This document shows, piece after piece, positions 1,490 to 7,674 of a stretch of 50,089 bases of DNA. The position numbers and the translations under genes are program-made. The stretch is from positions 1 to 50,089 of the forward strand of contig NZ_JADEXD010000026.1 of the NCBI RefSeq assembly GCF_015207285.1. Direction: 5' to 3'. The notes below the pieces were generated by a model that saw nothing but the letters and a program-made list of their open reading frames with translations, was not told the DNA's origin and did no database searches. Every line of letters starts with the position of its first letter. Positions within the stretch are counted from its first letter, which is position 1. The DNA is from Tychonema sp. LEGE 07203. Its GTDB lineage: Bacteria > Cyanobacteriota > Cyanobacteriia > Cyanobacteriales > Microcoleaceae.

Positions 1490-1505
1490 GTCGGCGCAGG
1501 CCGAC
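1490..1505. repeat. Small GC-rich hairpin, possible terminator of the SDR gene
   Basis: GTCGG and CCGAC arms close a short loop about 40 bp downstream of the SDR stop. It is followed on the minus strand by general spacer without a strong T-tract, so a terminator role is weak. A similar GTCGG hairpin occurs near 30538. Confidence 0.4.
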
Positions 1506-1545
1506 ATCGTTTGTGTAGACGCGGTTTCAACCGCCGAATCATCTT

Positions 1546-2322
1546 TTAAATCAAAGAACCGCCACCGTCAATCCACACTTCAGTACCCGTGATAAAGCTG
1601 GATGTACCGGAGACTAAAAATAAAACTAATTGGGCAATTTCTTCGCTAGAACCAGCGGTATTATCAGTCAAAGGAATCATATCTTGAAGGCTATCGCGGT
1701 CAACTGGAATGCGATCGAGATGTCGCTTAGTGGTACTTTCCTCGATCGCAGTCAGCACCCCGCCCGGACAGATAACATTGACTCGGATTTGGCAGGGCGC
1801 AAGTTCTAGCGCCAGCATTTTTGCAAAAGCTACTTGGGCCGCTTTGCTGCAAGCATAAGCTGTAGCCCCTACTTTCCTGAAACTTCTTGTGCCATTAATC
1901 GATGATGTAATGACAATCGAACCGCCTTGTTTTTTTAGATAAGGAACTGCATATTTTACAGTCAAAAATGTTCCTGTGAGGTTGGTGTTAATTGTCCGAT
2001 CCCACTCATCAATTGCTATCTCTTCTACCGGCGACCAGATCCCGTTAATCCCTGCATTGGCGAACACAATATCAATTCTTTGATATTCGTTAACAATAGT
2101 TTGAAATGCCTGCTGCATTTGCTGACTGTCGCCCACATCTGCGGCAATTGCCAGCCCGCGCCCTCCTTCATCGATTAGTTTGCCGACTGTTTCTTGCGCC
2201 GTTTCTAAACTTAGATCGATAATAGCAACTTTTGCGCCTTCTTTGGCCATTAAAATTGCTGCTGCACGACCAATTCCCGACCCGCCGCCGGTAATAACGG
2301 CAACTTTTTCTGCAAGTTTCAT
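1546..2322 (-). CDS. SDR family oxidoreductase
   Basis: 258-aa classical short-chain dehydrogenase/reductase. The Rossmann glycine motif TGGGSGIG is at residues 11-18, NAG at 89-91, the catalytic Ser pair in TSS near 140, and the YxxxK dyad (YACSK, Tyr156/Lys160). The length is normal for single-domain classical SDRs. Asp36 (IIDLS) at the end of beta2 suggests NAD(H) preference. The substrate cannot be inferred; the nearest names in this family are glucose dehydrogenases and 3-oxoacyl reductases. It lies 200 bp downstream of the alpha-amylase gene on the same strand, with no obvious functional link. Confidence 0.9.
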   Translation of the reverse strand: MKLAEKVAVITGGGSGIGRAAAILMAKEGAKVAIIDLSLETAQETVGKLIDEGGRGLAIAADVGDSQQMQQAFQTIVNEYQRIDIVFANAGINGIWSPVEEIAIDEWDRTINTNLTGTFLTVKYAVPYLKKQGGSIVITSSINGTRSFRKVGATAYACSKAAQVAFAKMLALELAPCQIRVNVICPGGVLTAIEESTTKRHLDRIPVDRDSLQDMIPLTDNTAGSSEEIAQLVLFLVSGTSSFITGTEVWIDGGGSLI

Positions 2323-2464
2323 TTTATTTTTATATAAATAACGTTTTAGACTGACCTAAAAATAAGACTGGAGATAGAAAAAACTAAAGTCCTCGCTACC
2401 AACAGGCTTTACTCATCCAAAATTGCCAAGTAAAAAATGGTTTAATGCACTGATTGTAGCGGTA

Positions 2465-2485
2465 AGGTGCGCGGAACGCACCCTA
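2465..2485. repeat. Inverted repeat GGTGCG...CGCACC between amylase and SDR genes
   Basis: A 6-bp perfect stem (GGTGCG / CGCACC) with a 5-nt loop, 38 bp past the amylase stop. The motif reads like the common cyanobacterial 'gtagggtgcg ttccgcgcacc' dispersed repeat. It may also terminate amylase transcription, although no T-tract follows. Confidence 0.5.
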
Positions 2486-2522
2486 CTTCAGGCAGAGAAG
2501 TCTGTCAATTTTAAGACAGTCC

Positions 2523-4001
2523 TTACGGCTGCGGAACCCAGACAGAAACTGAACCGGCGTTACACCGGAAATCTGCCCAACCATCGTCATTCGTTGCGAT
2601 GGGTTCTTTGATATGTTCGGTGATGTCAATATAAGTTCGATTCGGATGCCCGACTTCCATAAACTTAGTGCCATCGCCTCCGTTACTGAGTACCACAGCC
2701 ATGCCGCCCGGATGTTCTTCATCTCCGAGTCGCGTCCAGCCAATTGTGTTGGCGTGGTCGAAGTAATCGTACTGATTGCCGTAGGAATAGGTTTGGCGCG
2801 CCCACAAGAATTTATCGATAATAAATTGATGTTTGTCTAACCAAATCTCGTATTCGTTGCCATCATTTGCTGTATCCTTGTAGTTAGCGCCGTAATAATC
2901 CGGGTAAAAAATACAAGGATATCCTTCGCTACGCAACAGGATCAAAGCGTAGGCAAGAGGTTTAAACCAACCCTCGACAACTGATTCTAAGGATTGCAAA
3001 GGTTGGGAATCGTGGTTGTCAACCAAGGTAACGGCTAGAGTGGGTTGCTGTTGCACGAGGGTGCCGTCGAAAATTGTTCGCAAGTCGTAGCTGTTGCCGG
3101 CCTTGCTAGCAGCGTGGAAATTGTAGTGGAGGGGTGCGTCAAATAAGGAGACTTTACCATCTGTAGCTTGGATGAAGTAGTGCAAAGCTTCTACTTCGTA
3201 AGACCAATATTCGCCGACGGCAAATAGGTCGCGTTTGGCATAGTTGCGGACGTGTTCCAACCACTCTTGGAAAAATTCTGCTGCTACGTGTTTGGCCGCG
3301 TCAAAACGAAAGCCGTCAACGTTTGTTGTATCTACGTACCACTCACCCCAGTATTTTAATTCCCCGGTGACTTCTGGGTTGTCCATATCTAAATCGCAAC
3401 CCATCAGATAGTCAAAGTTGCCTTTTTCTAAGTCTACTCCCCAATCAAATTGTTTACCTTTTAGCAAGTAAACTGCTTTTTCTTCTGTGTTGTAAACGTT
3501 GTAATCAATCGCGTCAAAATGCCACCAATGCCACTCCATGCTGGAATATTTTTTGTCGCGCCCTGGGAAAGTAAAATGAGTCCAAGCTTTGATTGTTTGA
3601 TATTCGCCTACGGTGTCATTTCGGTTGTCGGGATGGAAGGGCGTGGCTTCGGCTTCTTCTTCTGCATCTGCACCTAATTTGTGGTTGAATACAACATCGG
3701 CATAAATCCGAATTCCAGCTTCTTGGGCAGCTTTGATGGCGCGCAAATACTCATCTTTTGTGCCGTATTTAGTGCGTACTGACCCTTTTTGGTCGAATTC
3801 GCCTAAATCGAACAAGTCGTAGACGCCATAGCCTACATCCATACCGCCGGCCGTTCCTTTATAGGCGGGTGGCAACCACAGGGATGTAACGCCGATTTTG
3901 GCTAAATCTTTTGCAGATTCTGCTAGCTGGTTCCACAGGCTGCCGTCGTCGGGATTGTACCAGTGGAAATACTGCATCATGACGCCATTGACTTCAGACA
4001 T
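2523..4001 (-). CDS. Cytoplasmic alpha-amylase, glycoside hydrolase family 13 (GH13_5-like)
   Basis: 492-aa enzyme predicted to cleave internal alpha-1,4 bonds of glycogen and maltodextrins in the cytosol; there is no signal peptide. The (beta/alpha)8 regions are visible: ADVVFNH (101-107), GFRFDAAKH with nucleophile Asp234, AVGEYWS with acid/base Glu264, and LVDNHDSQP with the third carboxylate Asp331. The N-terminus GVMMQYFHWYNPDDG and the overall length match intracellular, AmyS/AmyA-type GH13_5 enzymes. The ATG at 4001 is preferred over one at 4088, because an AGGGAAAA purine-rich RBS lies just upstream and homology starts there. It is probably transcribed alone; the SDR gene follows after 200 bp. 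Confidence 0.92.
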   Translation of the reverse strand: MSEVNGVMMQYFHWYNPDDGSLWNQLAESAKDLAKIGVTSLWLPPAYKGTAGGMDVGYGVYDLFDLGEFDQKGSVRTKYGTKDEYLRAIKAAQEAGIRIYADVVFNHKLGADAEEEAEATPFHPDNRNDTVGEYQTIKAWTHFTFPGRDKKYSSMEWHWWHFDAIDYNVYNTEEKAVYLLKGKQFDWGVDLEKGNFDYLMGCDLDMDNPEVTGELKYWGEWYVDTTNVDGFRFDAAKHVAAEFFQEWLEHVRNYAKRDLFAVGEYWSYEVEALHYFIQATDGKVSLFDAPLHYNFHAASKAGNSYDLRTIFDGTLVQQQPTLAVTLVDNHDSQPLQSLESVVEGWFKPLAYALILLRSEGYPCIFYPDYYGANYKDTANDGNEYEIWLDKHQFIIDKFLWARQTYSYGNQYDYFDHANTIGWTRLGDEEHPGGMAVVLSNGGDGTKFMEVGHPNRTYIDITEHIKEPIATNDDGWADFRCNAGSVSVWVPQP

Positions 4002-5389: not shown

Positions 5390-6381
5390 TTTTTATTTCT
5401 ACAGTAACAATTTGTTTGTCACCGATGACAGAGTTTTGTCCATTTAGGCGATCGCTCTATCTGGTAGAGTTTGATATGGCAAGGGCGATCGTATCCTTAA
5501 AATCTGGCGATCCTGTGATTCCGGTTTGGTCTCACCCCTCCCTCCTCTTCCTTGGAAGACGAAACTGAAATGGATTTAGAAACATTACTCGATCGCATAA
5601 ACCTTGGAGAAGACCAAGACATTGAATTTAAGTCTGCTGACGGTGGTTTCCCCAATGAAGTTTGGAAAACTGTATCAGCATTTGCCAATACAGATGGCGG
5701 CTATATTGTTCTTGGGGTTAAAGAAACTCGCACAGGGTTTGAGATTTCTGGTGTCCGCAATCCTCATGTTTTAATTAAAGAGTTTTGGAATAATCATAAT
5801 AATCCGCAAAAACTGAGCTTCTCAATTTGTGGCAATTCTGACCTACAAACTTTGAAGATAGAAGATCGTAATTTAGTTGTTATTAAAATTCCCAGGGCAA
5901 CCAGAACTCAGCGCCCAGTTTATATTAACAATAATCCCATGATTGGGACATATAAGCGCAACCACGAGGGGGATTACCGTTGCACTGATGCTGAAGTTCG
6001 CCAAATGTTGCGCGATGCCAGCAACGATCCTCAAGATATCAAAATTTTAGAAGGTTTCGACCTTAGCGATATCGATGCAGAAACATTAAAATCCTTTCGT
6101 CAACGGTTTAGCTCTAGAGAACCGGATCATCCTTGGCTGGCATTAGACGATTCGGACTTGTTGCGTCAGTTAGGAGGATGGAGTCGCGATCGCAGCACAG
6201 GTAAAGAAGGGTTGACTATTGCTGGTTTGTTGATGTTTGGTCGGGAACGAAGCATTTTAGATGCACTGCCTCACTACCAACTTGATTATCAGGAGCAACT
6301 TTCTGGCGATCCAGAAACACGGTGGACTTACAGACTAACACTTGATGGCAAGTGGGAACCTAACCTGTTCAACTTCTACTA

Positions 6382-6480
6382 AGCTGTTATACATTTAAAT
6401 TGTGCATCAAAAATCAATACAAATATTGTGGAATGGGCTTCTAGCCCGTTCCGAATATCCAGTTTAAATGCGCCACAGCT
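6382..6480. mobile_element. 99-bp MITE with TA target duplication
   Basis: It starts AGCTGT....CATTTAAA and ends with the inverse TTTAAATG....ACAGCT (16 of 21 terminal positions match). TA dinucleotides flank it at 6380-6381 and 6481-6482, the hallmark of IS630/Tc1-mariner-type insertion. The centre is a 10-bp hairpin (6430-6439 / 6443-6452, loop TCT), so the entire element can fold on itself. No coding capacity. Its left end supplies the TAA stop that truncates the host gene. Confidence 0.85.
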
Positions 6481-7173
6481 TATCGCGTTTATACTCGTTT
6501 AGTTAATGATTTAGATGTTCCTTTTCAACTAGACAAAGATGCCGTGCGTCGAGGCGAGACTCACGTGCACGAAGCATTGCGAGAGGCTTTAGTCAACACT
6601 CTTATTCATGCCGATCATCAATCAACTCGCCCTTTAATAATTACTAAGTACAAAAATGGTTTTTCGTTTTCTAATCCGGGTCGTCTGAGAATTTCTCTTC
6701 AGCAGCTTTACGAAGGTGGCGTTAGCGATCCTCGCAATCCTAATTTGCAAAAAATGTTTCAAATGCTAGGCTTAGGAGAAAAAGCAGGATCTGGCTTTGG
6801 AAAGATGATCCGCGCTTGGATAGAACAGCAGTGGTTTCCTTTGGTATCAGAAAAATTAGAGTTAGAGATGACTTTGGTTGGTTTACCAATGGTGAGCATG
6901 ATTCCCGAAAATGTCGAACAAGAGTTAAGGGAAATTGTGGGAGATGACTATTGCGAACTGACAGAATTAGAGCGCATTATTTTGATATTGGCGCATCAAT
7001 CAGGAGCAATTAGCAATGCTGACATTCAGTGTTACAGCCGAGAACACCCTAGAGATATAGGGGAATGTCTCAAGCGATTCGTCAATAATGGTTGGTTAGA
7101 ACGCTCTGGTCGCGGGCGTGGAACTCAGTATGCTCTACCACATAAAGGTGAATCGGATTTGCTTTCACTGCTT

Positions 7174-7257
7174 CCTAGCTCCGAACATTACGAACCTAGC
7201 TCCGAACATTACGAACCTAGCTCCGAACATTACGAACCTAGCTCCGAACATTACGAG
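7174..7257 (+). repeat. Four 21-bp in-frame tandem repeats (SSEHYEP)
   Basis: Unit CCTAGCTCCGAACATTACGAA repeated four times, the last with one change at its end. Each encodes seven residues (P-S-S-E-H-Y-E). Two degenerate relatives (CTCCGAACATTAC) recur at about 7341 and 7360 in the same gene. It lies between the ATPase half and the final winged helix. Confidence 0.95.
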
Positions 7258-7674
7258 CATCTGCGAAAAATTGCTGCACCGATTCGCGACAAAGGTCGCA
7301 CCAGCAAAGAGCTTGTCGAGCGGGTTATTGTAGAACTTTGCTCCGAACATTACTTACAACTCCGAACATTAGCTGACTTATTGGGTCGTGCGCCAAACAG
7401 TGTCAGGAACCACTATGTAAATCCGATGTTAAAACAAGGCTTGTTAGAGGCACGATATCCTGACGAACCAACTCATCCCCAGCAAGCATACAGAACCTTG
7501 TTGTCTCAAAGAATCAGCAAAATTTCTGATACTCCGCCATCTCCCCAAACCTCATAAAACATCGTTGACACCAGCTATCTGCCCACCACGACGGAACCTT
7601 AAACTTTGCGCCACTCGATTGCTAATCACCAATTGCCCCAAAGCAATTAGCAATTAGCAATTTTACCCTAATCA

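Follow-up and report, generated by a model that had tools for sequence, protein, structure and literature searches.

An interrupted AlbA_2/ATPase-type gene

Is the gene for an AlbA_2/ATPase-type protein in this 50,089 bp stretch of the Tychonema sp. LEGE 07203 genome (the window) a very recent casualty of a short mobile element, is it switched off and on by that element, or has it long been dead? A first-pass annotation made from the sequence had proposed a 99 bp element with inverted ends and flanking TA dinucleotides, whose removal together with one TA would restore the reading frame. We consider it very probable that a MITE, mobilised in trans by an IS630-type element, inserted at a TA in a conserved AlbA_2/GHKL-ATPase-type gene and cut off its ATPase half. 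The relevant features of the window are as follows, G012 being another genome of the same genus.

5552–6382, forward strand: 5′ portion of the interrupted gene (276 aa), with an SLFN_AlbA_2 domain and a TAA stop at the element junction
6380–6381, no strand: left TA of the target-site duplication, read from the sequence; a single TA is present here in relatives
6382–6480, forward strand: MITE of 99 bp with IS630/Tc1-type ends, recognised by 12 full-length copies at 99–100 % identity, TA flanks and folding
6382–6401, forward strand: left terminal repeat, sharing 17/20 bases with the corresponding end of an intact G012 IS630
6430–6452, no strand: inner GC-rich palindrome, present outside the element too in this genome
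6461–6480, reverse strand: right terminal repeat, sharing 18/20 bases with the corresponding end of that IS630 type, both in G012 and in this genome's relic on contig C248
6481–6482, no strand: right TA of the target-site duplication, read from the sequence; a single TA is present here in relatives
6484–7557, forward strand: 3′ portion of the interrupted gene (357 codons and a stop codon), with HATPase_c_4 and Fic-like_C matches; the GTG at 6544 is the first ATG, GTG or TTG in this frame

The element begins with AGCTGT and ends with ACAGCT. The inverted ends are perfect over 8 bp when the TA is counted and imperfect farther inward, and the pair was not reported by a repeat finder at its default setting (12 bp, seed 9). 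When the ends were assessed by RNA folding, they paired on both strands (z −6.86 and −6.02), and none of 200 shuffles per strand was as stable as the element. The element is well under the limit of approximately 500 bp for a MITE and contains no transposase gene, and it has the terminal inverted repeats, target-site duplication and several dispersed copies that mark the class. The inner palindrome (GGAACGGGC...GCCCGTTCC, followed by ACAA) is a REP-like repeat of this genome, which is also found outside the element as tandem units of 86 bp and 24 bp (L248 bases 1–260; L026 about bases 1500–1590). A scan of 6300–6600 for promoters and terminators returned none of either, and Rfam gave nothing at E 0.1 or better across 6200–6700.

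The TAA ending at 6382, in which the left TA is completed by the element's initial A, closes the 5′ frame, and there is no ATG, GTG or TTG upstream of the GTG at 6544 in the 3′ frame. Hence, translation from the normal start can yield only a 276 aa N-terminal AlbA_2 fragment, which lacks the ATPase part. Given the junction stop and the separation of the AlbA_2 and ATPase parts, we infer that loss of function is the likely outcome for the gene product. The frame is rejoined by removing 101 bp, as had been predicted: the interrupted form of the gene is longer than the uninterrupted one by this length, and the protein of relatives spans the insertion point as NLFNFY-YRVY. Separately, the coding region of the 3′ half contains, at 7174–7256, four perfect 21 bp tandem units that encode a 7-residue repeat.

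No NCBIfam family was found for the protein of an intact relative. The same protein (L052 bases 1498–3381) gave weak partial matches to pAgo and SIR2-Argonaute-type models in PADLOC; a defence assignment was not adopted because these matches extend over just portions of long models with several domains, and they probably reflect shared small domains.

Copies of the element in this genome and in relatives

A search of the genome (6.61 Mb in 351 contigs) with the element yielded 48 matches with an E value of at most 0.001, many of them to the inner palindrome alone. Twelve were full-length copies at 99–100 % identity, 11 identical and one with a single difference (99 %), and all 12 had TA on both sides in otherwise unrelated surroundings. 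With this many full-length copies in its own genome, the element is not a chance arrangement, and the further copies anticipated in the first-pass annotation are present. Much older full-length copies, with about 72–79 % identity, were also found. When three or fewer mismatches were allowed, the end motif TAAGCTGTNNNNCATTTAAA occurred 311 times versus 142 for a reversed control, an excess indicating that several related short elements have these ends in common. A pair of end motifs facing outward on contig C316 was inspected and is not an IS.

Matches to the element were found in 31 of the 59 genomes searched, including this one. They were present in 28 of 29 genomes of the same genus (27 of the 28 relatives) and in three of 30 others, and the MITE family is old and diverse in the genus. 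The mean distance between copies within a genome was 0.025 in G016 (10 copies), 0.048 in G010 (10 copies), 0.088 in G021 (six copies), 0.113 in G012 (four copies) and 0.147 in G023 (10 copies), in sets that were picked from the top of each match list and are hence biased, with two of the G016 copies having the same flanks. The closer copies within some genomes suggest separate bursts in some lineages. No copy of the element was found at E 1e-5 in plasmid and phage collections.

In a crude survey of open frames, made independently of gene annotation, at least nine of the 11 other copies lay outside long reading frames, and frames of more than 130 aa were touched only by the window copy and the copy on contig C2. 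The latter also terminates a long frame, beside a second short repeat. A short repeat with the ends TATAGC and GCTATA adjoins two MITE copies (L012 about bases 1602–1720; L001 about bases 1480–1700), and one of these MITE copies apparently lies within the repeat, making the elements nested.

A probable IS630-type partner

The DDE_3 (IS630-type) matches in this genome led to contig C248, on which the reading frame of a transposase stops next to an exact copy of the end motif. This IS630 copy (L114 bases 957–2354) is 5′-truncated, lacking about the first 135 residues, and is dead; it adjoins a transposase gene that, from its appearance, we take to be IS1-type. Intact IS630 of about 1.2 kb were found in two genomes of the same genus, G012 (two copies examined) and G020 (L125, L151 and L127). 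Their open frames, of 375 aa in G012 and 385 aa in G020, encode a DDE_3 transposase, and the motif is present at both ends with at most one mismatch, the ends being TAAGCTGT....C(A/C)T(T/C)TAAA. In a comparison restricted to the ends, the MITE agreed with the G012 IS630 at 17/20 bases on the left and 18/20 on the right.

TA-specific insertion and ends in common with a DDE-transposase-encoding IS630 are the features of an element mobilised by the IS630/Tc1-mariner group, and the IS630/Tc1-type affiliation first proposed from the TA duplication thus stands. A transposase with AGCTGT-type termini, also foreseen, exists as a truncated relic in this genome and in intact form in relatives. The near-identical ends of the relatives' IS630, together with the truncated copy here, point to a mobiliser of IS630/Tc1 type. 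The MITE, a non-autonomous element with IS630/Tc1-mariner-type ends, was most likely moved in trans by such a transposase, and the similarity of the ends points to the G012-like type. A transposase recognising TAAGCTGT....CATTTAAA-type ends would copy or move the MITE; insertion at a TA within the conserved AlbA_2/GHKL-ATPase-type gene duplicated the TA, added 101 bp with an immediate TAA and separated off the ATPase half.

This assembly, a draft in 351 contigs, yielded no complete transposase gene flanked by matching ends. A second IS630 type, with the ends TAAGCTG(A/C)TACGCAGCT and a weaker similarity to the MITE (13–14/20), is represented by a relic on contig C83 and by copies broken at contig ends on C36, C232, C210 and C26. 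Complete but collapsed copies of this type may exist in the genome.

This negative result bears on the suggestion that the element moves in and out here among members of the population, so that the gene alternates between inactive and active states. The near-identity of the copies indicates that the family moved recently, and both halves of the gene are undamaged, which speaks for such a reversible switch; however, a search of the assembly found no complete source of transposase with matching ends, and the behaviour of the characterised IS630 element ISY100 also counts against it. In the available part of its description, the rejoined donor produced by excision of ISY100 in vitro keeps two extra bases plus the second TA, giving TATATA rather than a clean TA (PMC2170065). 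By analogy, simple excision here would be expected to leave extra bases in a frame-changing scar; a clean empty site would not be the default product of excision and would need repair from an uninterrupted copy of the chromosome. A reversible switch is unlikely, and we disfavour it. It is similarly improbable that the element comes and goes in filaments with multi-copy chromosomes through precise repair from uninterrupted copies; if this were true, filaments would be mosaic, some cells having the AlbA_2/ATPase protein and others lacking it.

Uninterrupted sites in relatives

Insertion of a MITE into a previously intact gene was further examined through relatives. Strong relatives of the split gene were found in nine other genomes, and in all nine the frame is uninterrupted at the insertion point at the DNA level, with one TA at that point and open frames of 609–664 aa. 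This bears out the view that a MITE splits a single gene, with SLFN_AlbA_2 on the 5′ side and HATPase_c_4 on the 3′ side. In a wider scan of a second genome collection, the frame passes through the point in 29 of 31 loci, seven of the 31 being the same loci as in the set of nine; in the remaining two (L193 and L195) the alignment stops short of the insertion point and they are not assessable. A BLAST search of the 31 loci with the element gave one short match, away from the insertion site. The most plausible reading of these empty sites is that they represent the pre-insertion state.

Two copies besides the window copy, those on contigs C259 and C142, were examined for empty sites in four relatives each. 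For the C259 copy, the flanks directly adjoin with a single TA in one relative (G028), which is a clean empty site, and are diverged in the other three (G005, G023 and G008). The C142 copy gave no usable comparison in any of its four. Identity of loci shows G028 to be Microcoleus sp. LEGE 07076 and G005 to be Tychonema sp. LEGE 06208; the genome studied here is congeneric.

The same comparisons speak to whether a short-read assembly misplaced a repeat into the gene. The assembly is in 351 contigs with several identical copies of the element, two of which (on C302 and C308) are less than 300 bases from the beginning of their contigs. However, both flanks belong to the same gene, as in all nine relatives, and carry the correct TA duplication, whereas a mis-join at a repeat would put unrelated flanks together. 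We regard an assembly artefact as very unlikely.

Age of the insertion

How long ago the MITE inserted was judged from the state of the gene and of the copies. No inner stops are present in either half. For the 5′ half (270 codons), dN/dS was 0.13–0.23 in pairs including the window gene and 0.11–0.22 in other pairs; over the initial 218 codons of the 3′ half the corresponding values were 0.074–0.084 and 0.061–0.111, the last 139 codons, which include a repeat array of varying length, being omitted. With no inner stops and dN/dS like that of intact relatives, there is no sign of gene decay. Only one base difference is seen across all 12 copies (12×99 bases), while synonymous divergence to the nearest relatives is 0.08–0.21, and the burst and the insertion are thus much younger than the species split. 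Together, the undamaged halves and the single difference among the copies indicate that the insertion is very recent, in agreement with the initial description of the gene as a very recent casualty.

A long-dead gene with the element ancestral at the site would fit the age and diversity of the MITE family in the genus, but the element is at the site in none of the nine relatives and none of the 29 assessable loci of the wider scan, and neither the near-identity of the copies nor the condition of the halves is that of an old pseudogene, making this reading extremely improbable. Neither outcome named in the first-pass annotation as contradicting it, namely relatives that all have the element here beside degraded flanking genes or a lack of further copies in any genome, was observed. 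Hardly more credible is that full protein is still made by bypassing the hairpin at the RNA or translation level: the strong folding on both strands and the lack of visible decay would suit it, but most other copies in the crude survey are not in a long reading frame, Rfam has no match and recency alone accounts for the absent decay.

Comparison with known elements

A recent MITE insertion into a gene is an ordinary, well-understood type of event, here caught early, and MITE-split genes are already known in cyanobacteria. The Nezha MITE of Anabaena/Nostoc, reportedly described by Zhou and colleagues in 2008, is said to be short and non-autonomous with inverted ends, to be present in multiple copies and to have been recently active. 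By description, the element found here resembles it in each of these respects and in residing in a filamentous cyanobacterium. Searches of the literature, with ISfinder outside their scope, found no publication describing a MITE from this genus.

In Anabaena sp. 90, according to the available part of the genome report, there are 147 MITEs of 77–541 bp, of which 15 are in disrupted frames that are now pseudogenes, and the authors found no matching IS (type II) (PMC3542288). Compared by description, the disruption of a reading frame by a MITE is the same type of event; unlike those MITEs, as that part of the report presents them, the element examined here has ends that match an IS630 type. MITE-inactivated gene clusters in natural Anabaena are also mentioned in the part of a review that was available (PMC10969869). 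ISY100 is described in the accessible part of its report as an autonomous element with a TA target and duplication, a DDE transposase and terminal repeats, about 24 bp long, that are sufficient for it to transpose (PMC2170065). On that description, the element shares with ISY100 the TA target and TA duplication but differs in having no transposase gene. The ends match those of the intact IS630 of G012 and G020, which in contrast carry a transposase.

Existing knowledge of MITEs is unchanged by the present case. It does provide a clean, early-stage MITE burst, with 12 copies and one difference, a dated insertion, empty sites and an identifiable IS630 partner, and thus a usable system for examining the mobilisation of cyanobacterial MITEs and the persistence of a newly split gene.
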